Below the pieces are notes generated by a model. That model saw nothing but the letters and a program-made list of their open reading frames with translations. It did not search any database and was not told the origin of the DNA. From Chitinophaga ginsengisegetis (lineage in GTDB: Bacteria > Bacteroidota > Bacteroidia > Chitinophagales > Chitinophagaceae), in assembly GCF_900168065.1 (NCBI RefSeq), contig NZ_FUZZ01000003.1:186001-250000 (forward strand): DNA of 64,000 bases, given 5' to 3'. This document shows, piece after piece, positions 2,803 to 48,760 of the stretch (position 1 is its first letter; every line of letters begins with the position of its first letter). Position numbers and translations under genes: made by a program.

Positions 2803-4557
2803 ATGAAAAGATTAAATTTTCTCTTCTTTGCTCTCCCGCTCTTGCTGGTAGTGAATGTAATATGCGCTCAGTCGCTGGTATTAAGCCAAAGAACGGCTTC
2901 TCAAACAGCCATTGTTATTGCCGATAATAGTACACAACCTACATCGAAAGCTGCAAAAGAACTGCAAAAATATATAAAAAAAACACTAAGCATAGACGTT
3001 CCAATCACGAATAACGGTAATGCAAAAAATCAGATTATAATTGGACAAGGGGATTATATTAAATCAATGGCTCCCGAAGTGAATACATCAAAATTAGGAA
3101 CCGATGGATACACTATACTTACAAAAGGAACAAAACTCATTATAGCCGGGGGGAGTGGTAAGGGACCCTTGTTTGGCGTATATACACTGCTGGAAAAATA
3201 TTTCGGTTGCAGAATGTATACGGCAGATGTAATGAAAATCCCTAAAAGAAGCAGTCTTACTATCCCTGCTGTTAACCTCACAGAAATACCAACTTTGATT
3301 TTAAGAGATGTTTTTTACCTAGGCGCAATGGACTCCTCATATTCAGATTGGCATAAATTAATTCATGCAAGAAGTACTAATTCTTCTTTATTTGGCATAT
3401 TTGCACACACCGGTTTTCAGATAATGCCACCCAAGCAATATTTTAATACTCATCCCGAATATTATTCCCTGGTAAAAGGCAAAAGACAGCCATTACAACT
3501 GGATCCTACCAATAAAGACGTATATAATATTTTGCTTGGATGGCTAAATGCAAAAATTAAAAATCAACCCCAATATAACTATTGGTCCGTTTCAGTGGAG
3601 GATAATGGTTCTTATTGCGAGTGCGACAAATGTCTGCCAGTAATTAATAACACAAAAACACCTGGAGGACCAACAATCGCGCTGGCAAATAATCTTGCAC
3701 AGAACTTTCCTAATGAAAATATTTCAGCACTCGCATATTCCTATACACGTAATCCACCGCAGAATATGAAATTAGCCCCCAATTTAAATATCATGTATTG
3801 CCCTCAGCCCAAGAACTATGTAAGTAGTTATCAGGGGGATGACTATGCAGAAATGCACAATCAATTTGATGGCTGGCAGAAACTTACCAAAAATATCTTT
3901 GTCTGGGATTATGTCATAGATTATTCGGCGCTTGAATCTATCCATCCTAATTTATTGATATTAAAACCTAATCTGCAATACTTTGTAAATAAAGGTATTA
4001 AAGGTTATTTTGCAGAAGGAAATATTTTTCCAGACGGTGAATTTGCTGAGCTCAGAGCTTATCTTCTGTCTAAATTAACATGGGATCCAAATTTGGACGA
4101 TAATGCAGTAATAGATGACTTCCTGCAGGGCTTTTATGGAGATGCCGCACCTTCTTTAAAACGCTATATACAACTTACATCCTCTCAACTCACGGGCAAT
4201 AATAAGCTGACAGAAAGCATGATTAACAATTATGATGACCTGTTTGATGCTGCGATGAACAGCGTAAAAAACCAACCTGTATATCTGAAGCGAGTACAAA
4301 AAGAAAGAATTCCATTACAATATTCAGCCGTTCAGGCCTATCTGGATGAGGCTAGCAAGGACCCGGACCAATTCTTTAATAATACGCAAAAATATAACAA
4401 CTTTAATACGCATTTGGAAGGCTTCCTCACATCTGTAAAACAATGCGGTATTAAACGGCTTGTACACAATGAAAATAACCTGCCTCTCTATCAATTTTAC
4501 AGCGACTGGAAAAATAAGATGTCGACCTTAAAAAGTAAATCACTCATGAAAAAGTGA
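2803..4557 (+). CDS. Secreted DUF4838 protein, glycosidase-like
   Basis: Putative secreted glycoside-active protein. The chosen ATG at 2803 gives a clean signal peptide (MKRLNFLFFALPLLLVV, cleavage near VICAQS); a GTG seven codons upstream at 2782 would add residues that do not look like a signal. Residues about 45-140 resemble the N-terminal domain of alpha-glucuronidases (AAKELQKYIKKTL...). The middle carries SVEDNGSYCECDKC, the ND/CxCxxC signature of DUF4838. No catalytic assignment is secure. It is the only plus-strand gene inside the polysaccharide locus, so it may trim or release the polymer, or be an insertion. It ends in a bidirectional terminator. Confidence 0.82.
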   Translation: MKRLNFLFFALPLLLVVNVICAQSLVLSQRTASQTAIVIADNSTQPTSKAAKELQKYIKKTLSIDVPITNNGNAKNQIIIGQGDYIKSMAPEVNTSKLGTDGYTILTKGTKLIIAGGSGKGPLFGVYTLLEKYFGCRMYTADVMKIPKRSSLTIPAVNLTEIPTLILRDVFYLGAMDSSYSDWHKLIHARSTNSSLFGIFAHTGFQIMPPKQYFNTHPEYYSLVKGKRQPLQLDPTNKDVYNILLGWLNAKIKNQPQYNYWSVSVEDNGSYCECDKCLPVINNTKTPGGPTIALANNLAQNFPNENISALAYSYTRNPPQNMKLAPNLNIMYCPQPKNYVSSYQGDDYAEMHNQFDGWQKLTKNIFVWDYVIDYSALESIHPNLLILKPNLQYFVNKGIKGYFAEGNIFPDGEFAELRAYLLSKLTWDPNLDDNAVIDDFLQGFYGDAAPSLKRYIQLTSSQLTGNNKLTESMINNYDDLFDAAMNSVKNQPVYLKRVQKERIPLQYSAVQAYLDEASKDPDQFFNNTQKYNNFNTHLEGFLTSVKQCGIKRLVHNENNLPLYQFYSDWKNKMSTLKSKSLMKK

Positions 4558-24154: not shown

Positions 24155-25567
24155 TCAGTCTTCCGGAGGTCCGCCATCAGCCATCCGCACCACTTTGGGC
24201 ACAAACTGACCAATCACTTCCACCAGCGCTGTTTGCGCCGCCATTACCGTATCAATATTTTTATACGCACCTGGCGCTTCGTCTAATCCACCTCCAATCA
24301 GTGTTACACCATGTTCAAGTAACTGCTGCTTCAACACTTCGTTAGTGATAGATGACTTTGCCTTCGTACGCGACATTAATCTTCCGGCGCCATGCGAAGC
24401 CGATTGTAAACTACCCTCTTCACCCTTTCCACGCACAATGAATCCCGGCGCTGTCATGGATCCGGGGATTATCCCCAGTACTCCCTTTCCTGCCGGTGTT
24501 GCCCCTTTCCGGTGTACAATCACTTCTTTCCCCTGGTACATTTCTTTCCAGGCAAAATTATGATGATTCTCCACCCTTGCCAGTAAAGTAGCGCCCATCG
24601 CATTAATCAGCCGTTTGTGAATCAGGTGGTGACAGGCAGACGCATAGTCACCCGCCAGGTTCATCGCCAGCCAGTACTCCTGCCCTTCCTCCGTATCCAG
24701 ATCCAGGTAAGCCAGGTGCTTTGCATGTTCCGGTAACGGGCAGATCTCTTTTGCAAGCTGCGTATAATGCCCTGCTATCTGCGCACCCATTCCGCGCGAA
24801 CCGGAGTGGGATAGTAATGCCACATACTCACCGGGCGCCAGCTGCCATTCATTCTGCGGATCAGTAATCGTTGCAATTCCCCATTCCACGAAATGGTTGC
24901 CGGAACCGGATGTTCCAAGCTGACCCGCCGCCTTATCAAACAGGTTCCTAACAAACTTTATCTCCTTAAATTCACTTCTCTCCAGCACCGGGTCCGCCTC
25001 CCGTTTCTTCCACTCCGCACCGGCGCCGAATTTGGTGAAGGTCATCAGCTGCTTTGTATACGACGTTTCGTTCATTAACAACGTTTGCACCGGCAAATCC
25101 AGTACGCTCAAACACATACGGCAACCAATATCCACGCCTACGCCGTATGGTATCACCGCGTTATCTGCGGCCAATACACCGCCTATCGGTAATCCATATC
25201 CCTGGTGGGCATCCGGCATTAAGGAACCAGCAACGGCAACGGGTAAACGAACAGCGTTATTCAACTGCTTCACCGCGCCTTCTTCTATATATGATTCTCC
25301 GTAAACGGAATAAGGCACGGGCGTTTCACGCAAGGCAATCACTGCCGGCGCAGCAGGAACCAACAGTTCCTGTGCTATTTCGCCCAGTATGGCGTCATCT
25401 GCATATGCGGCAGGATCCGCCAGCACTTTGGTTAACAATGCAATTGCCTCTTCTTCTGTATAGTGTCCGTAATGTTTTTCTATAACATCCATAGCTATAC
25501 GAAAAACAGGGCTTTGGGGGTAACCTATCTCCAGTAATTTTTTACCATTGATTTTTAAACTTGACAT
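24155..25567 (-). CDS. rtcB: RtcB-family RNA ligase
   Basis: GTP- and Mn-dependent ligase that joins 2',3'-cyclic phosphate or 3'-phosphate RNA ends to 5'-OH ends, repairing cleaved tRNA or rRNA. The 470-residue protein has PDAHQGYGLPIGGVLA, GVDIGCRMC (metal Asp/Cys), GTSGSGNHFVEWG and SHSGSRGMG. It also has ENHHNFAW and SASHGAGRLMSRT, in which the guanylylated His is His392. All active-site motifs are present. It is the last gene of an operon with a basic unknown protein (12 bp upstream) and an AAA ATPase. No archease or RtcA is nearby, which separates this from the classical rtcBA operon. Confidence 0.95.
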   Translation of the reverse strand: MSSLKINGKKLLEIGYPQSPVFRIAMDVIEKHYGHYTEEEAIALLTKVLADPAAYADDAILGEIAQELLVPAAPAVIALRETPVPYSVYGESYIEEGAVKQLNNAVRLPVAVAGSLMPDAHQGYGLPIGGVLAADNAVIPYGVGVDIGCRMCLSVLDLPVQTLLMNETSYTKQLMTFTKFGAGAEWKKREADPVLERSEFKEIKFVRNLFDKAAGQLGTSGSGNHFVEWGIATITDPQNEWQLAPGEYVALLSHSGSRGMGAQIAGHYTQLAKEICPLPEHAKHLAYLDLDTEEGQEYWLAMNLAGDYASACHHLIHKRLINAMGATLLARVENHHNFAWKEMYQGKEVIVHRKGATPAGKGVLGIIPGSMTAPGFIVRGKGEEGSLQSASHGAGRLMSRTKAKSSITNEVLKQQLLEHGVTLIGGGLDEAPGAYKNIDTVMAAQTALVEVIGQFVPKVVRMADGGPPED

Positions 25568-25579
25568 AAAGGGTTAATT

Positions 25580-26311
25580 TTATTCGTACCATTCTTCCTG
25601 CAGCAGCTGCTGCAGGGTATACTGCTTAAATTGATATTTTATCTTATACTCCGGTAACCATTTTCTCCAGCCGGACTGCCTGCTCCTGGTAAGGCTCCAG
25701 ATCTTAGGTTCCAGCTGATTCCGCTTCAGGAAATTATCCAGCTGATCTATCTCAGAACGCAGCTCCGGCGCCGTTACCCGCTGTTTGGTGATCATATTGG
25801 GACGCACCTGTAATACAAATCTCCAGGGTTCTTTTACAACAAAATACTTAATCTGATCAATACCGTTTTTACAATAACGTACCCGTTCTTCAAAACAATT
25901 CCTCTCTTTTGGGGTGAGTTTCATTTTCTTAAAATGATAATCCACAGGTTGCAACAATTGTTGTTCTCTCAGCACATGTATCTTTCTCCCTCTCCTTCGT
26001 TTTTTAACCTTAAAATCTTTACGGTGACTATAATCATACGTATTGATTTTTTTTAACAGCTCCTGGAAAAATTCACCATCCCGGCTTCTGGCCACGTCCC
26101 CCCGTAAAACAAAGTAACGCTTGTAACCTTTCATTACCGGTGGATCCAGCTCCGTATAGCCCCGCCGATTCCATGCCTGCCACAATTCCTTTTTCTTTCT
26201 GTTGTATTGCAGTAGTTGTTTGTCGTATTGTTTACGCGCATCGCGCTTTCTGCGCCTGCACGTTCTTATCCGTGAGGCAGCCATATAATTTTCGATCTCC
26301 TGATTGTCCAT
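25580..26311 (-). CDS. Very basic protein linked to RtcB, unknown
   Basis: Not recognised. The 243 residues are very rich in Arg and Lys, with clusters such as RIRTCRRRKRDARKQYDK (residues 15-32) and KVKKRRRGRKIHV (about 102-114), and many Trp, Tyr and Gln. No signal peptide or transmembrane helix is seen. A repeated W-x-x-x/K-L pattern at the C-terminus (RKWLPEYKIKYQFKQYTLQQLLQEEW) may form a helix pair. The charge suggests nucleic-acid binding. It lies between rtcB (12 bp) and the AAA ATPase (100 bp), so it may present RNA to RtcB or bind ribosomes. This role is inference. Confidence 0.7.
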   Translation of the reverse strand: MDNQEIENYMAASRIRTCRRRKRDARKQYDKQLLQYNRKKKELWQAWNRRGYTELDPPVMKGYKRYFVLRGDVARSRDGEFFQELLKKINTYDYSHRKDFKVKKRRRGRKIHVLREQQLLQPVDYHFKKMKLTPKERNCFEERVRYCKNGIDQIKYFVVKEPWRFVLQVRPNMITKQRVTAPELRSEIDQLDNFLKRNQLEPKIWSLTRSRQSGWRKWLPEYKIKYQFKQYTLQQLLQEEWYE

Positions 26312-26411
26312 AATCAGTAATTAAATTTTCAATATTGTTTACGCTGCTGATATATATGGACAATTGATTTCTTTTCATTTTTATTAATTTTTTTAAGATG
26401 AATAAATAATA

Positions 26412-27476
26412 TTACGCGATCTCTTCCAGCATTTCCCGCCTGAACCCGATCACATGTTGCCTGGTTTCAAAAGAAGGCTCATGCTGATTTGCAATTTCTG
26501 CAATGGTCATCGCCTTGTTGATCACCGTATCAAAGCCCATGTGTTTTGATAACGCCTGTGCTTTAGCGGCAGACAAGCGTTTGAACTCATACTTTGCGAT
26601 CAGCCTGCCTTTGCGTAGCAAGGCGCTGTCAATAGCGGATAAATCACTGTTGAAAGAACATACCAGTTGTATATTCAAACAATCTGCCAGCAATCCATCC
26701 GACAGGTTCAGCAGGTTGGAAACGGAGGAGTTTCCGGAAAACTTACGATCCATAATTACATTTTCGGCATCTTCAATGATCACCACGCAATTGGGATTAT
26801 CGATCAGCAATTCCATGAACTCCGGATTCATAATGTTGTTCGCCAGGTCCGGTGAAACAAAAAGCACGCGCTTTTTTATCCGGCCTATCAGGTAACGCAG
26901 GTAGGTAGTTTTACCTGTTCCCGGTAAGCCATGCAGCAACACGATCCCCTTGTCTTTATCCTTCTTCAGCCGCTGTTGTATCACCTTATCTATCTCCTTA
27001 AAATCATCTTCATAAAACTTACCTATATCCAGCTTGGTGCGTTTTATTTCCAGGCTTTTAAGCTCCAGTCCTTTACGTCCGCTGGTGATCAGGTTAATTT
27101 CATGCGGCTCCCTGCGTTGTTTCTCTTTATATCGTGTAGCCATTTCCGTTACTTCAGATACAAATGCAGGAATAGTGCCGTTGTGCAATATCTCACACCA
27201 CGATTGCCAGAACGCCACCACGCTGTTATTATTCAGTACAAACAGCGTCTGGTTATGTTTATACTTTTTCTTTTTATTATCGTAATCAGTATAGCGGTGT
27301 GTATGCACAATCATACTTTCATATTTCTTCGCAAAAGCAGCGGCGGCTTTATCACCATCTACTTCATAAATGTTATTGATATCGGGAATAGCATTAAAAT
27401 TAACAGTATATACTCCCTTCGGGGCAAAATGTTCGCCGTCTGTTATATCGATGTTATTATTAACTATATGCTCCAT
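26412..27476 (-). CDS. AAA family ATPase heading the RtcB operon
   Basis: Cytoplasmic ATPase of 354 residues. The first 150 residues form an unrecognised domain. The AAA core has Walker A LLHGLPGTGKTTYLRYL (about residues 179-195), Walker B CVVIIEDAEN, sensor-1-like LVCSFNSD and arginine-containing SALLRKGRLIAKYEF. The overall form is like BCS1/NSF-type single-domain AAA proteins with an N-terminal substrate domain. It is the first gene of the operon with a basic protein and RtcB. Upstream there are 240 bp with hairpins, then two leader-ORF attenuators. It may remodel an RNP or ribosome-bound complex before RNA ligation. Confidence 0.85.
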   Translation of the reverse strand: MEHIVNNNIDITDGEHFAPKGVYTVNFNAIPDINNIYEVDGDKAAAAFAKKYESMIVHTHRYTDYDNKKKKYKHNQTLFVLNNNSVVAFWQSWCEILHNGTIPAFVSEVTEMATRYKEKQRREPHEINLITSGRKGLELKSLEIKRTKLDIGKFYEDDFKEIDKVIQQRLKKDKDKGIVLLHGLPGTGKTTYLRYLIGRIKKRVLFVSPDLANNIMNPEFMELLIDNPNCVVIIEDAENVIMDRKFSGNSSVSNLLNLSDGLLADCLNIQLVCSFNSDLSAIDSALLRKGRLIAKYEFKRLSAAKAQALSKHMGFDTVINKAMTIAEIANQHEPSFETRQHVIGFRREMLEEIA

Positions 27477-27724
27477 ATTTCTTGATCTCTTTAATGTGAT
27501 TGCCTCCTGATGATAAAGATTTCCCGGAACCAGGCCGGTCCCGGGTAAATCGTATTTATCATGGGGTAAATTACAGGTTATCCTTCTGATAACCTGATGA
27601 TAAGGGGTTAAAAATGCAAACAGAGACGAAAAAAAATATCTTAAAAAGGAGATGAAAGCGGAGCAGGATTACTCCGCCTGCCTGTTTTTTATATACCTCC
27701 TCAAATAATCTTTATACTGCCGCA
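27477..27724 (-). other. Leader of AAA-RtcB operon with hairpins and direct repeats
   Basis: No gene is seen here. The plus strand carries CCTGATGATAA twice, at 27506-27516 and 27593-27603. A perfect 9-bp stem-loop lies at 27574-27596 (CAGGTTATC/GATAACCTG) and an 8-of-9 stem at about 27523-27545 (CCCGGAACC/GGTCCCGGG). These could be operator, antiterminator or RNA-stability elements in the transcript that leads into the AAA gene. A further weak hairpin lies near 27655-27680. Confidence 0.45.
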
Positions 27725-27758
27725 TAAAAAAACCCGGTCTGTTTAAAACGGACCGGGT
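27725..27758 (-). terminator. Attenuator terminator B
   Basis: Arms ACCCGGTCTG/(C)GGACCGGGT span 27732-27758, followed on the minus strand by seven U residues. The 5' arm contains GTCCGT (minus strand of 27748-27753), complementary to ACGGAC in the end of leader ORF B (27799-27804). Confidence 0.85.
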
Positions 27759-27779
27759 CATATAACGTTAACGCATACA

Positions 27780-27887
27780 CTACGTTAAGACATACCTCGT
27801 CCGTTTAGCATTAATTGAATTAATGCTATCTCTAAACCATTTGCTGCGGCGGATTTGAATCCGTTCTGTTATTTCCGGTAAACTCAT
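27780..27887 (-). CDS. Leader peptide B (35 aa)
   Basis: Short ORF beginning ATG at 27887 (another in-frame ATG at 27890), encoding MSLPEITERIQIRRSKW and ending AKRTRYVLT, Arg-rich. It contains a 9-bp hairpin (27807-27827) followed within 2 nt by ACGGAC (27799-27804), which can pair with the 5' arm of terminator B. The stop codon lies 16 nt after that segment, so a ribosome reaching the stop would cover it and let the terminator form; a stalled ribosome upstream would leave it free. No Shine-Dalgarno is expected in this phylum. Coding is supported by geometry shared with units A, C and D, not by homology. Confidence 0.5.
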   Translation of the reverse strand: MSLPEITERIQIRRSKWFRDSINSINAKRTRYVLT

Positions 27888-27906
27888 CATTTCAATAAAT
27901 CGATAA

Positions 27907-27937
27907 CAAAAAAGCCCGGATCCAAAGACCCGGGCTT
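27907..27937 (-). terminator. Attenuator terminator A
   Basis: Stem 27912-27937 (AAGCCCGGATC/GACCCGGGCTT with one G-T) and a minus-strand U run over 27907-27913. The 5' arm GCCCGG (27930-27935) is complementary to CCGGGC (27983-27988) at the end of leader ORF A. Confidence 0.85.
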
Positions 27938-27963
27938 CTGTTATACTTACAAATATTTTTTAT

Positions 27964-28053
27964 CTACCTGTAACCATAAAACGCCCGGAATCCGCGGCCA
28001 TCTTGCCCGAGGCAGGATGTTGCGTTGTCCATATGTAGATTAATGCGTTTCAT
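27964..28053 (-). CDS. Leader peptide A (29 aa)
   Basis: Short ORF from ATG 28053, encoding MKRINLHMDNATSC and ending GRGFRAFYGYR. It begins about 30 nt after the expected transcription start of a perfect housekeeping promoter. It contains an imperfect hairpin (27999-28019) and then CCGGGC (27983-27988), complementary to the 5' arm of terminator A. The stop codon is 17 nt beyond that segment. The same layout is seen in units B, C and D with different sequences. Peptide function, if any, is likely only as a ribosome-position sensor. Confidence 0.5.
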   Translation of the reverse strand: MKRINLHMDNATSCLGQDGRGFRAFYGYR

Positions 28054-28089
28054 GTTTATCAATTTGTTTTATTATCAATTTTAACGATG

Positions 28090-28122
28090 CAAAGATAACA
28101 GGATATATTTTGAATTTGCAAA
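28090..28122 (-). promoter_or_regulatory. Housekeeping promoter for leader A-B / AAA-RtcB
   Basis: Minus-strand -33 TTTG (28119-28122) and -7 TATCTTTG (28090-28097) with a 21-bp spacer, an exact match to the Bacteroidetes consensus TTTG-N19-21-TAnnTTTG. Expected start is near 28084. Confidence 0.85.
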
Positions 28123-28319: not shown

Positions 28320-28889
28320 TTATATTAACACCGCGCTTTCTTCGAACTCCTTCTGAAGGCGCTGCATCTGGCGGATATGCCGCTCAATATGCTTGGTGAG
28401 GAAATAGATGTACTGATAGATATCCAGCTTACCCAGCTGATTCACAGACATATTGGTAAATACCAGCACCCCTTCGCCGTTTTTCAGTAAAGACAGGTTG
28501 TACATGCACTGTGCATACTGTTGCTTCAGGAGGGCTTTTACTTCCTGCATATTTTTAAGTCCGGTAGGTTCCATATGTTCGGGTCTTACCCAACCAAAGG
28601 ATTTGCTGCCGATGACGTCTATCTGTTCTAATTTATTGGCATAATCTGCCGGGAGTATCACGGAGTGGCCGGTTTTCTTACGTTCCAGCGCACGGCGGGT
28701 ACTCTTATTGATGATCAGCAGCAAAAAGTAATTGGTGAGCGTAATATGCTCCAATACTTCCCGTATGCTCCATTGATCACGGTCTGGTTTGAAGTCCAGT
28801 AATGCCGGTTCTTTTTCAAACCACTGATCCAACTCCCTGAAATTGGTGAGTAAGGCCTCTCTTACAACTTGAATAACGTTTCTCATCAT
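28320..28889 (-). CDS. DinB-family putative metal-dependent protein
   Basis: Four-helix-bundle DinB/YfiT-like protein of 189 residues. WSIREVLEHITLTNYFLLL (residues about 40-58) contains the first metal His, and HIERHIRQMQRLQKEF near residue 165-180 is the C-terminal H-x-x-x-H helix. Family members include thiol transferases and damage- or antibiotic-related enzymes; this one has no assigned substrate. It is transcribed behind two leader-ORF attenuators (C and D) and ends in its own terminator, so it is a single-gene unit under regulation like that of the AAA-RtcB operon. Start ATG 28889 is followed by a second ATG at 28886. Confidence 0.82.
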   Translation of the reverse strand: MMRNVIQVVREALLTNFRELDQWFEKEPALLDFKPDRDQWSIREVLEHITLTNYFLLLIINKSTRRALERKKTGHSVILPADYANKLEQIDVIGSKSFGWVRPEHMEPTGLKNMQEVKALLKQQYAQCMYNLSLLKNGEGVLVFTNMSVNQLGKLDIYQYIYFLTKHIERHIRQMQRLQKEFEESAVLI

Positions 28890-28998: not shown

Positions 28999-29028
28999 AA
29001 AAAAACCCGGCCGTATTTACGGACCGGG
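28999..29028 (-). terminator. Attenuator terminator C
   Basis: Stem 29006-29028 (CCCGG-CCGT/ACGGaCCGGG) with a minus-strand run of seven U. The 5' arm GTCCGT (29019-29024) is complementary to ACGGAC (29070-29075) in leader ORF C. Confidence 0.85.
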
Positions 29029-29055
29029 ATAAATAATGTAGATGGTTATCTCACA

Positions 29056-29133
29056 TTACCGCATACCTTGTCCGTATGGCCTTTTTAAGGCAAGACCATT
29101 CCGTTTACACCATGAGGTGTATTTTTTTTGCAT
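29056..29133 (-). CDS. Leader peptide C (25 aa)
   Basis: Short ORF from ATG 29133, MQKKYTSWCKRNGLALK ending RPYGQGMR. It contains a small hairpin (29079-29091) and ACGGAC (29070-29075), which is complementary to the 5' arm of terminator C. The stop codon follows 11 nt later. The stretch ACGGACAAGGTATG matches unit B (ACGGACGAGGTATG) but is read in a different frame, so selection seems to act on the RNA rather than the peptide. No separate promoter was found, so it is probably read in tandem after unit D. Confidence 0.5.
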   Translation of the reverse strand: MQKKYTSWCKRNGLALKRPYGQGMR

Positions 29134-29188
29134 TACAGTTATCGCTTGAAATTCTTTCAATGTCGTCATTTCATTACTGCTTCAAAAG

Positions 29189-29222
29189 CAAAAAGTCCCA
29201 CACTTTTCTCTAGTGCGGGACT
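29189..29222 (-). terminator. Attenuator terminator D
   Basis: Eleven-bp stem 29194-29222 (AGTCCCACACT/AGTGCGGGACT, one G-T) followed by minus-strand TTTTTGC. The 5' arm CCCGCA (29214-29219) is complementary to TGCGGG (29276-29281) in leader ORF D. Confidence 0.85.
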
Positions 29223-29255
29223 CTTGTTTATATCGTTTGATAACTTTTTCTATCG

Positions 29256-29315
29256 TTAACAATCGGTGCAACATGCCCGCATTCCGGCCTTGACCTGCTT
29301 GTGTTGGCAGGCCAT
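29256..29315 (-). CDS. Leader peptide D (19 aa)
   Basis: Short ORF MACQHKQVKAGMRACCTDC from ATG 29315, about 48 nt after the expected start of a perfect promoter. The hairpin CCTGC/GCAGG (29294-29311) precedes TGCGGG (29276-29281), complementary to the 5' arm of terminator D; the stop is 17 nt beyond. A longer frame in another register runs through the terminator and is less attractive. Confidence 0.5.
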   Translation of the reverse strand: MACQHKQVKAGMRACCTDC

Positions 29316-29368
29316 CGCTGAAATCTCGTATGTTGATATAAGTTGCACAGTTATTTTTGTTCTTGAAG

Positions 29369-29401
29369 CAAAGGTAATTTTTATTTTTTTTATTACACAA
29401 A
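29369..29401 (-). promoter_or_regulatory. Housekeeping promoter for leader D-C / dinB
   Basis: Minus-strand -33 TTTG (29398-29401) and -7 TACCTTTG (29369-29376) with a 21-bp spacer, the same spacing as the promoter of unit A. Expected start near 29363. Confidence 0.85.
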
Positions 29402-47368: not shown

Positions 47369-48760
47369 TTACTTGTTCACTACTTTCAGATTCTTCGGAT
47401 CCCAGTGGATGATCTTATTATCGAAATAGCTTTCGTTACACAGCAGCGCCGGTGCGGCAGCACGGAAACCAAATGTAGGATCTTCCGCTACTTTGCCATT
47501 GGTACGCATTGCATTAAACAGGTTGTAGAAGTGATCAAAGTGCGCGCCTTTGTACCCTTTCTCTGCTTCATAGATCATCTTTTCAGGATCCAGCATGTTC
47601 GCACGGTGATAGGCATACGATTTTCCATTGTTGGAAGCAGCTGCATTGGCAGTAGCCAGCGGATCGTTTTCATCTACCTGTACGTTATTGCGGAACAGGG
47701 TTACCTTATCCCATTCTACCGTCATGGAGCCTTCGCTGCCTACCATGCGCAGGTAGTTGGTACCACCGGTACCATCCACAAAGTTTACGCGGAGCGACAG
47801 GTTAAATGCAGGATGTATTTCTGTTTCAGGATAATCAAACATTCCGAGCATAATATCCGGTACTTCCCTGCCGTCTTTCCAGTAACGTAATCCGCCGGTA
47901 GCCATTACTTTGTTGGGCCCGAGGGAACCGGTTACCAGGTGAAGACTGGAAAACAGGTGAACGAACAGATCGCCGGAAACGCCGGTACCATAGTCTTTAT
48001 AATTACGCCAGCGGAAGAAACGTAACGGGTCAAAATCGCGCTTGGGCGCGTTTTTGAGGTAAGCGGTCCAGTCTACTGTTTTAGTGGAAGCATCCGCAGG
48101 AATAGGATATTGCCATGCGCCGGTGGGCGACATACGTGCCCAGAAGCCTTCTGCATAATTAAGTTTACCGATAGCGCCATCTTTCAGCAGCTGCCGGGCT
48201 TTTTCATTACCCAGGGAGCTCATACCCTGGCTGCCTACCTGGTATACTACCTTTCCGTTGCGTTGCTGCGCTTCCACTACTGCAGGGCCTTCGGTGATAT
48301 CATGTACCATCGGCTTTTCGCAATACACGGATTTGCCTTTATTCATGGCTGCCACAGAAATATCTTTGTGCCAGAAGTCCGGCACTGCGATGATCACGGC
48401 ATCAATGTCTTTTCTGTCCAGGATATCCTGGTAACTGCGGGTAGTGTAAATATCATTACCCCATTTCTTTTTTGCATCAGCCAAACGGCCATCATACAAA
48501 TCACAGGCGGCTATCAGCTTTACACCGGGCACGGTGATTGCCGTATTGGCATCTGCTGTTCCCATACCACCGGCACCTATCAGTGCAATCTGTATCTGGT
48601 CGTTCGGACTGTATTTTTCTTTCAGGCGGGAAAGTGATTGAATGTTTCTTTGTTTATCAGCTGCGGTCAGGATACTTGGCAGCAGTGACGCTCCTACTAC
48701 TCCCTTGGCAAATTTACTGATGAAACTCCGGCGAGAGTCTTCATTGGAATTTACTGGCAT
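47369..48760 (-). CDS. Gfo/Idh/MocA-family oxidoreductase
   Basis: NAD(P)-dependent sugar oxidoreductase of 463 residues, probably exported by Tat: DSRRSFISKFAKGVVGASLLP has the twin Arg and hydrophobic stretch. The Rossmann loop IALIGAGGMGTADANTAI is near residue 58, and VYCEKPMVHD (the EKP motif with catalytic Lys) near 145. The C-terminal domain has WRNYKDYGTGVSGDLFVHLF (the D/G-x-x-D/H active-site segment). The lost neighbour (DUF1080 remnant) suggests a former role in 3-keto-sugar metabolism. Substrate is unknown. Confidence 0.87.
   Translation of the reverse strand: MPVNSNEDSRRSFISKFAKGVVGASLLPSILTAADKQRNIQSLSRLKEKYSPNDQIQIALIGAGGMGTADANTAITVPGVKLIAACDLYDGRLADAKKKWGNDIYTTRSYQDILDRKDIDAVIIAVPDFWHKDISVAAMNKGKSVYCEKPMVHDITEGPAVVEAQQRNGKVVYQVGSQGMSSLGNEKARQLLKDGAIGKLNYAEGFWARMSPTGAWQYPIPADASTKTVDWTAYLKNAPKRDFDPLRFFRWRNYKDYGTGVSGDLFVHLFSSLHLVTGSLGPNKVMATGGLRYWKDGREVPDIMLGMFDYPETEIHPAFNLSLRVNFVDGTGGTNYLRMVGSEGSMTVEWDKVTLFRNNVQVDENDPLATANAAASNNGKSYAYHRANMLDPEKMIYEAEKGYKGAHFDHFYNLFNAMRTNGKVAEDPTFGFRAAAPALLCNESYFDNKIIHWDPKNLKVVNK

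Follow-up and report, generated by a model that had tools for sequence, protein, structure and literature searches.

We analysed a 64-kb window of the soil bacterium Chitinophaga ginsengisegetis (assembly GCF_900168065.1, contig NZ_FUZZ01000003.1, positions 186,001 to 250,000), that is, the whole stretch of DNA under study, within which all coordinates below are numbered from its first letter. On the minus strand, a single Bacteroidota-type promoter is followed by two intrinsic terminators and then by genes for an AAA ATPase, a basic protein and the RNA ligase RtcB. Each terminator follows a short ORF (29 and 36 codons) whose RNA can pair with the 5' arm of that terminator, and a second such pair precedes an upstream DinB_2 gene.

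29369..29376 (minus): -7 element TACCTTTG of the promoter of the upstream (DinB_2) leader
29256..29348 (minus): leader ORF A', GTG start, 30 codons and stop
29191..29225 (minus): intrinsic terminator A'
29056..29169 (minus): leader ORF B', 37 codons and stop
29004..29029 (minus): intrinsic terminator B'
28320..28889 (minus): DinB_2-superfamily protein behind the upstream leader pair (PF12867, E 5.5e-10)
28090..28122 (minus): promoter of the ATPase-RtcB leader, TTTG, 21 nt, TATCTTTG
27964..28053 (minus): leader ORF A, 29 codons and stop
27910..27939 (minus): intrinsic terminator A (-21.1 kcal/mol)
27780..27890 (minus): leader ORF B, 36 codons and stop, the stop codon lying in a hairpin that covaries
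27726..27760 (minus; limits approximate): intrinsic terminator B, the 5' arm of which pairs with AAACGGAC..GGTA near the end of ORF B
27658..27702 (minus): module C, Shine-Dalgarno-like GAGGAGGT followed by the hairpin GCGGAG-TAATCCTG-CTCCGC
27604..27637 (minus): conserved element TTTTTTTTCGTCTCTGTTTG, a possible second promoter or RNA element
26412..27476 (minus): AAA ATPase, 354 aa (PF00004, E 2.6e-9), predicted Bcs1/YjoB-like model
25580..26311 (minus): basic protein, 243 aa, without a Pfam family
24155..25567 (minus): RtcB RNA ligase, 470 aa (PF01139, E 6.9e-84)

Anatomy and distribution of the paired leaders

The original prediction described one promoter, two leaders with terminators and the three genes behind them, and this observation is confirmed and proves to be larger than described, because the second tandem pair (29376-29004) and the conserved short ORFs before each terminator (A, 28053-27964; B, 27890-27780) had been missed. 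The promoter, with TATCTTTG at 28097-28090 and TTTG 21 nt upstream (28122-28119), occupies exactly the predicted span, and a TAnnTTTG element is kept at this place in all 19 leaders that were aligned. Compared with shuffled sequences, leader A folds at z -5.6 (0 of 200 shuffles as good), leader B only at z -2.3 (3 of 200) and the stretch from terminator B to the ATPase at z -4.5. A search of the window against Rfam returned no match over the gathering score to any known leader or riboswitch.

A strict scan for a promoter, an ORF of 24-50 codons, a terminator and a second terminator hits twice on the minus strand of the window (28097 and 29376) and never on the plus strand, whereas relaxed settings add one further minus-strand hit (47477). 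At least one pair is found in 60 of 60 ATPase loci of the genus. Over the 80 named relatives (1.14 Mb), the strict scan hits 52 loci in the forward direction and 0 in the reverse complement, and the relaxed scan 52 and 1, respectively. Of the 28 named loci without a strict leader, 13 are recovered by relaxing the promoter and ORF limits, with the control still at 0, and 15 are not; some loci are cut by contig ends. In the order-wide set, only 8 of 38 loci outside the genus have a strict pair, and the more distant ATPase relatives showed none. In several other genera, the first genes behind the leader are tRNAs, in arrays with RNase H-like, Band_7 and RtcB genes (Pfam RNaseH_like and Band_7; the proteins are named YkuK and slipin), although two of nine loci with tRNA arrays (L042 and L048; L numbers denote individual loci or genomes of relatives in the comparison) showed no strict leader. 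The terminator-B pattern occurs twice in the C. ginsengisegetis genome, both times at this locus, which excludes only other copies of that pattern.

RtcB is a frequent rather than a constant target, being absent beside the ATPase in 23 of 60 genus loci that keep a leader. Conversely, the leaders do not travel with RtcB alone: 10 of 20 further RtcB loci that were retrieved have no leader, namely, the paralog in the same genome, 7 from genomes with the ATPase and 2 from genomes without it. The RtcB encoded here carries the motifs GVDIGC, GSGNHF, HSGSRG, HRKGAT and HGAGR of the metal and guanylate sites, aligned to a solved chain. Structural comparison of the ATPase model (pLDDT 74) gave YjoB at Z 15.2 (rmsd 7.5, 294 aligned) and Bcs1 at Z about 13, and a profile search hit Bcs1 at E 1.3e-5 over the AAA part only. 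For the basic protein, the best Z was 5.5 (rmsd 6.8, 73 aligned), with no clear relative among the chains compared, an absence that by itself proves nothing. Only weak AAA matches were obtained in PADLOC, and a known defence system was accordingly rejected.

Leader ORFs, antiterminators and competing readings

ORFs precede both terminators throughout the genus. ORF A measures 27-33 codons in all 102 genus leaders found by the scan and 29-30 codons in 90 of them, whereas there are 95 distinct A and 103 distinct B peptides among 110 leaders. Codon positions diverge about equally, with no third-position excess, and +1 and -1 shifts cancel in L120 and L032, so that the frame rather than the peptide is kept; these frame counts are partly circular, however, because frame 0 was required by the detector. 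A conserved peptide function was therefore rejected. The same data bear on an alternative in which the attenuators sense one particular thing, such as one scarce or cleaved tRNA, through specific codons, as in amino-acid operon leaders. Leader ORF, antiterminator and terminator are indeed the parts of such leaders, and many A peptides end in similar residues (FRAFY.YR, RACY), but the shared end of A is the same RNA segment, read in another frame in L120 and L032, and inspection of the listed peptides revealed no run of one codon of the kind that is expected of a trp-type attenuator. We consider this alternative unlikely.

The ORF-terminator duplexes are stronger than in shuffled sequences, at -13.6 against -9.3 kcal/mol for A and -13.4 against -10.6 kcal/mol for B, although, taken singly, only 48 of 110 A and 37 of 108 B duplexes beat all but one of 30 shuffles. 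The B antiterminators, including that of B', covary, with 21 against 9.0 double-change cells (pair 1) and 10 against 4.4 (pair 2). By contrast, antiterminator A shows no covariation inside the genus, and in the window the best duplex for A uses a neighbouring ORF segment (CCTCGGGC) instead of the conserved TTCCGGGC. The alternative pairing thus rests on computation only. In folding of nascent RNA, the antiterminator falls from.69 with an early ribosome to.35 with a late one in A and from.73 to.48 in B, against.43 to.37 and.47 to.41 with shuffled ORFs (mean differences of.34 and.25 against.05 and.06). A clear drop is nevertheless seen in only 13 of 32 A and 8 of 32 B modules, the A' module of the window shows none, and at full-length equilibrium the terminator wins in most states, so that any switch must be kinetic.

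The original prediction had named a strong promoter between 27725 and 27476 as a finding that would overturn it, and such a promoter is not excluded, because a conserved element containing TCTGTTTG lies there. This leaves room for a second alternative, in which the leader RNAs are mainly separate small RNAs ending at the strong terminators A and B, and the operon is driven from another promoter near 27620-27600. The element is kept in genomes that lost the C hairpin (L105, L131, L142, L144, L146 and L148), but it lacks the A of TAnnTTTG in the sequences aligned, and no TTTG stands at the usual distance. Moreover, short ORFs of steady length and ORF-terminator covariation are not expected of plain small RNAs, and this possibility, too, appears improbable. 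In module C itself, a Shine-Dalgarno-like motif lies within 120 nt after terminator B in 39 of 49 leaders; an 18-codon frame is present in the window and in L100 but is not kept in relatives, and a third leader ORF was rejected. We also considered a degenerate tRNA or Y-RNA-like RNA in leader B. However, the T-arm-like GGATTCAAATCC is a small hairpin, not a T loop, and its two sides change together in relatives (GGGTTGAAACCC in L101), ARAGORN found no tRNA in the window, and only weak, chance-like matches to Rfam were obtained.

Under a third alternative, a protein made by the operon, the basic protein or the ATPase, binds the leader RNA and controls it. Both are linked to the leader, and helices are kept better than peptides. 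However, the basic protein is found in only 22 of 60 genus loci that have a leader, and in 10 of 12 examined genomes without the ATPase the leader stays before DinB_2 and RtcB. We regard this as the least likely of the three.

A putative translation-failure switch and related systems

The original prediction held that ribosome stalling, for example after tRNA cleavage or antibiotic action, frees pairing segments and switches on RNA repair, as a direct RNA sensor in place of RtcR. This interpretation is partly supported. On computational evidence, two tandem attenuators with alternative pairing that would depend on the position of a ribosome are supported, and profile searches of 79 genus genomes returned no RtcR over the Pfam cut-off (two weak matches below it, none in the genome studied here; the E. 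coli control was detected) and no RtcA. A switch specific to RtcB is not supported, given the loci without RtcB, the pair before DinB_2 and the tRNA genes behind leaders elsewhere, and induction by tRNA cleavage or antibiotics remains an inference.

The explanation that we favour, with a probability of about 0.62, is a tandem, ribosome-dependent transcription attenuator. In this view, RNA polymerase starts at one promoter and meets two terminators in series; ribosomes that translate each leader ORF to its end would cover the segment that otherwise pairs with the terminator, so that the terminator forms and little operon RNA is made. When translation fails, through early stalling, slow elongation or lack of initiation, the segment would pair first and the polymerase would read through. 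As both leaders must be passed, the pair would act as a tight AND gate for general translation trouble, serving translation-repair genes, here a possibly Bcs1-like ATPase, RtcB and a DinB_2 protein, and in relatives tRNA arrays, an RNase H-like and a Band_7 protein. In favour of this explanation, the gene content fits translation repair, and a cyanobacterial tRNA operon with rtcB in its regulon is opened by translation inhibitors (PMC10272220). The anatomy, the conserved frames and helices, the covariation of the B antiterminators and the lack of RtcR (over the cut-off) and RtcA emerge from the computation, whereas translation of the ORFs, the direction of the switch, its kinetics and the stress signal are inferred from sequence alone.

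A broader reading, about as likely as not, is a family-wide translation-stress regulon in Chitinophagaceae with no protein sensor, in which duplicated leader units form an RNA AND gate that keeps silent a repair-and-replace kit (RtcB, the possibly Bcs1-like ATPase, DinB_2, RNase H-like and Band_7 proteins and spare tRNA arrays) until ribosomes fail. The arrangement bears on how bacteria without RtcR decide when to repair RNA: if the favoured explanation is right, the ribosome is the sensor, and failure to finish two tiny ORFs directly turns on RNA ligation and, in relatives, spare tRNAs. RtcB, tRNA arrays, an uncharacterized ATPase and a basic protein of unknown family would thereby be tied into one response, amenable to a simple reporter, and a natural two-step translation-failure switch would be at hand.

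Searches of the open PMC literature, which leave out subscription papers and preprints, found no description of this arrangement and only one close match, the Anabaena system discussed below. In the proteobacterial rtcBA operon under RtcR and sigma-54 (PMC7790460; PMC9650030), RtcB is likewise under control tied to damage of the translation apparatus, but in the genus studied here RtcA is absent, RtcR is not found over the cut-off in 79 genomes and an RNA leader is present instead. Antibiotic-induced attenuators before resistance genes and amino-acid operon attenuators share the leader ORF, antiterminator and intrinsic terminator. They are usually single units before a resistance or biosynthesis gene, whereas here the unit is doubled, used twice in one locus and placed before RNA-repair and tRNA genes, without regulatory codon runs. 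The E. coli toiL uORF before topAI (PMC12121999) is a short upstream ORF that reports several kinds of ribosome inhibition, with stalling anywhere in the ORF proposed to act, but it controls exposure of a ribosome-binding site and Rho termination of a toxin-antitoxin gene, in contrast to the paired intrinsic terminators before repair genes described here. Finally, in Anabaena, a tRNA gene array (the trn operon), rtcB and a slipin gene belong to one response, the TrcR regulon, and the tRNA operon is activated by antibiotics that target translation (PMC10272220); there, a ribbon-helix-helix repressor acts at dispersed promoters, whereas here cis leaders with ORFs and terminators precede linked genes.

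Anatomy and distribution of the tandem leaders

The window lies in a 7.93 Mb genome, and among named genomes the closest relatives of its ATPase are found in Chitinophaga arvensicola and C. polysaccharea (94% identity). The original prediction, namely a promoter followed by leader A, terminator A, leader B and terminator B ahead of an RtcB operon, was confirmed, all of these parts being present. In addition, each terminator was found to follow a short ORF, and a second complete leader pair with its own promoter lies upstream, in front of a DinB_2-superfamily gene. The features of the locus are as follows:

29376 (-), promoter of the second leader pair, followed by ORF A' with a GTG start, a terminator, ORF B' and a second terminator
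28889-28320 (-), DinB_2-superfamily gene
28053-27964 (-), ORF A, 29 codons
27890-27780 (-), ORF B, 36 codons
27702-27658 (-), module C, a Shine-Dalgarno-like GAGGAGGT directly followed by a hairpin
27637-27604 (-), conserved TTTTTCGTCTCTGTTTG element between terminator B and the ATPase
27476-26412 (-), AAA ATPase
26311-25580 (-), basic protein
25567-24155 (-), RtcB

A strict scan for this order of parts identified exactly these two places on the minus strand of the window and none on the plus strand, whereas relaxed settings added one other promoter-ORF-two-terminator arrangement on the minus strand, at 47477, which starts a lipoprotein-like peptide. The Shine-Dalgarno-like motif of module C was detected in 39 of 49 leaders, and AGGAGG also stands before tRNA arrays in six other ATPase loci (L035-L037, L039, L040 and L045). 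Strong Shine-Dalgarno motifs are considered rare in Bacteroidota. The TTTTTCGTCTCTGTTTG element is kept even where the module C hairpin has been lost.

The ATPase is encoded in 60 of 79 genomes of the genus. Scanning of 98 oriented loci yielded 111 hits in 68 loci, of which one duplicate was dropped, leaving 110 leaders. All 60 genus loci contain at least one pair (53 have pair 1, 49 have pair 2 and 42 have both), whereas of the 38 loci outside the genus 8 have a strict pair. Among the best 80 of at least 514 relatives from named genomes, 52 loci have a strict pair, including 33 of 33 Chitinophaga-type loci and 19 of 47 others, compared with 0 in the reverse complement. Wider promoter and ORF limits recovered 13 of the remaining 28 loci, the control again giving 0. 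A Niastella locus (L190) and a Flavihumibacter locus (L238) were read by eye and have the same layout.

Reading frames and RNA pairing

Among 102 genus leaders, ORF A is 27–33 codons long, with 29–30 codons in 90 of them, yet the 110 leaders contain 95 distinct A and 103 distinct B peptides; two of the 110 had no ORF B by the limits of the scan. Leaders L120 and L032 carry a +1 and a -1 shift that restore the frame and the stop. Codon positions diverge about equally, so the frame, not the peptide, is kept. Frames +1 and +2 are open in 23 and 15 of 110 leaders for A and in 1 and 2 of 108 for B, but because frame 0 was required by the detector, this comparison is partly circular. The hairpin inside ORF B covaries strongly (54 double-change cells against 14), the one inside ORF A moderately (26 against 13.4), and a helix from the start codon to the antiterminator region weakly (13 against 5.7).

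RNA in each ORF can pair with the 5' arm of its terminator, with mean energies of -13.6 against -9.3 kcal/mol for shuffled ORFs (A) and -13.4 against -10.6 kcal/mol (B). Taken singly, however, 48 of 110 A and 37 of 108 B duplexes are matched by at most 1 of 30 shuffles, and in the window itself the best duplex for A uses a neighbouring segment of the ORF rather than the conserved TTCCGGGC. The pairing segment ends at a median of 13–18 nt (A) and 8–16 nt (B) before the end of the stop codon, depending on the group. For B, the pairing covaries: in pair 1, 92.5% of cells are paired, with 21 double-change cells against 9.0 in shuffles, and in pair 2, 85.6% are paired, with 10 against 4.4. By contrast, antiterminator A has no covariation within the genus (0 against.4), although between genera its arms differ together in individual examples (TTTGCGGGGC with GGCCCCGCAA in locus L036 and GTTCCGGGCG with AGCCCGGGA in locus L143).

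When RNA cut before the 3' arm of the terminator was folded with a modelled ribosome, antiterminator pairing averaged.69 with an early and.35 with a late ribosome for A (32 modules) and.73 and.48 for B (32 modules), against.43 and.37, and.47 and.41, respectively, with shuffled ORFs (128 each). A clear drop occurs in 13 of 32 A and 8 of 32 B modules (8 and 11 of 128 in shuffles), whereas some modules, including A' of the window, show no drop, and in full-length RNA the terminator wins in most states, so the switch would have to be kinetic. With no ribosome, the antiterminator is mostly as likely to form as with an early stall, so that failed initiation should open the gate as well.

Associated genes and a possible response to failing translation

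RtcB is found beside the ATPase in 37 of 60 genus loci and the basic protein in 22 of 60; where RtcB is missing, the leader stays. RtcB occurs in 78 of 79 genus genomes, and the genome studied here carries a second, unlinked copy (51% identity) on another contig. Of 20 further RtcB loci examined, 10 from genomes without the ATPase have the leader, DinB_2 and RtcB in that order, whereas the other 10 have no leader, these being the paralog of the genome itself, 7 loci from genomes with the ATPase and 2 from genomes without it. Hence, 10 of the 12 examined ATPase-less genomes (of 19) keep the leader. In other genera, the ATPase loci hold arrays of 3–13 tRNA genes in 9 of 40 loci, 7 of them with a strict leader, and up to 16 tRNA genes among the named loci, together with RNase H-like (PF04308), Band_7 (PF01145) and RtcB genes. 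Arrays of 12–16 tRNA genes lie inside RtcB/ATPase gene clusters in L185, L207 and the Niastella loci L190, L191, L193, L224 and L236. Between terminator B and the tRNA genes, L036, L037, L039 and L045 contain a small ORF with a strong AGGAGG lead-in, which looks like a membrane peptide in L036 and L037. In L041 (about 3666–4300) and L185 (about 3810–4240), a separate ORF resembling the N-terminal part of the ATPase, without its AAA domain, is located upstream of the full ATPase.

RtcB of the window aligns to a solved RtcB-family chain over the motifs GVDIGC, GSGNHF, HSGSRG, HRKGAT and HGAGR. The predicted structure of the ATPase (pLDDT 74, pTM.54) is closest to Bacillus subtilis YjoB (Z 15.2, rmsd 7.5, 294 aligned) and Bcs1 (Z about 13) among the chains compared, whereas the model of the basic protein (pLDDT 84) has no clear solved relative among them (best Z 5.5).

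Taken together, the anatomy, distribution and gene content fit tandem ribosome-dependent attenuators that open when translation fails. Translation of the ORFs, the modelled direction of the switch and the role of antibiotics or tRNA cleavage as the signal remain inferred. The interpretation originally put forward is partly supported: it was right about the two attenuators and plausibly about their logic, but the device is wider than RtcB and is present twice in the window. RtcA is absent from the 79 genus genomes and RtcR has no match over its cut-off in them. In Anabaena, a tRNA operon, rtcB and a slipin gene are repressed by TrcR, and the tRNA operon is activated by antibiotics that target translation (PMC10272220).
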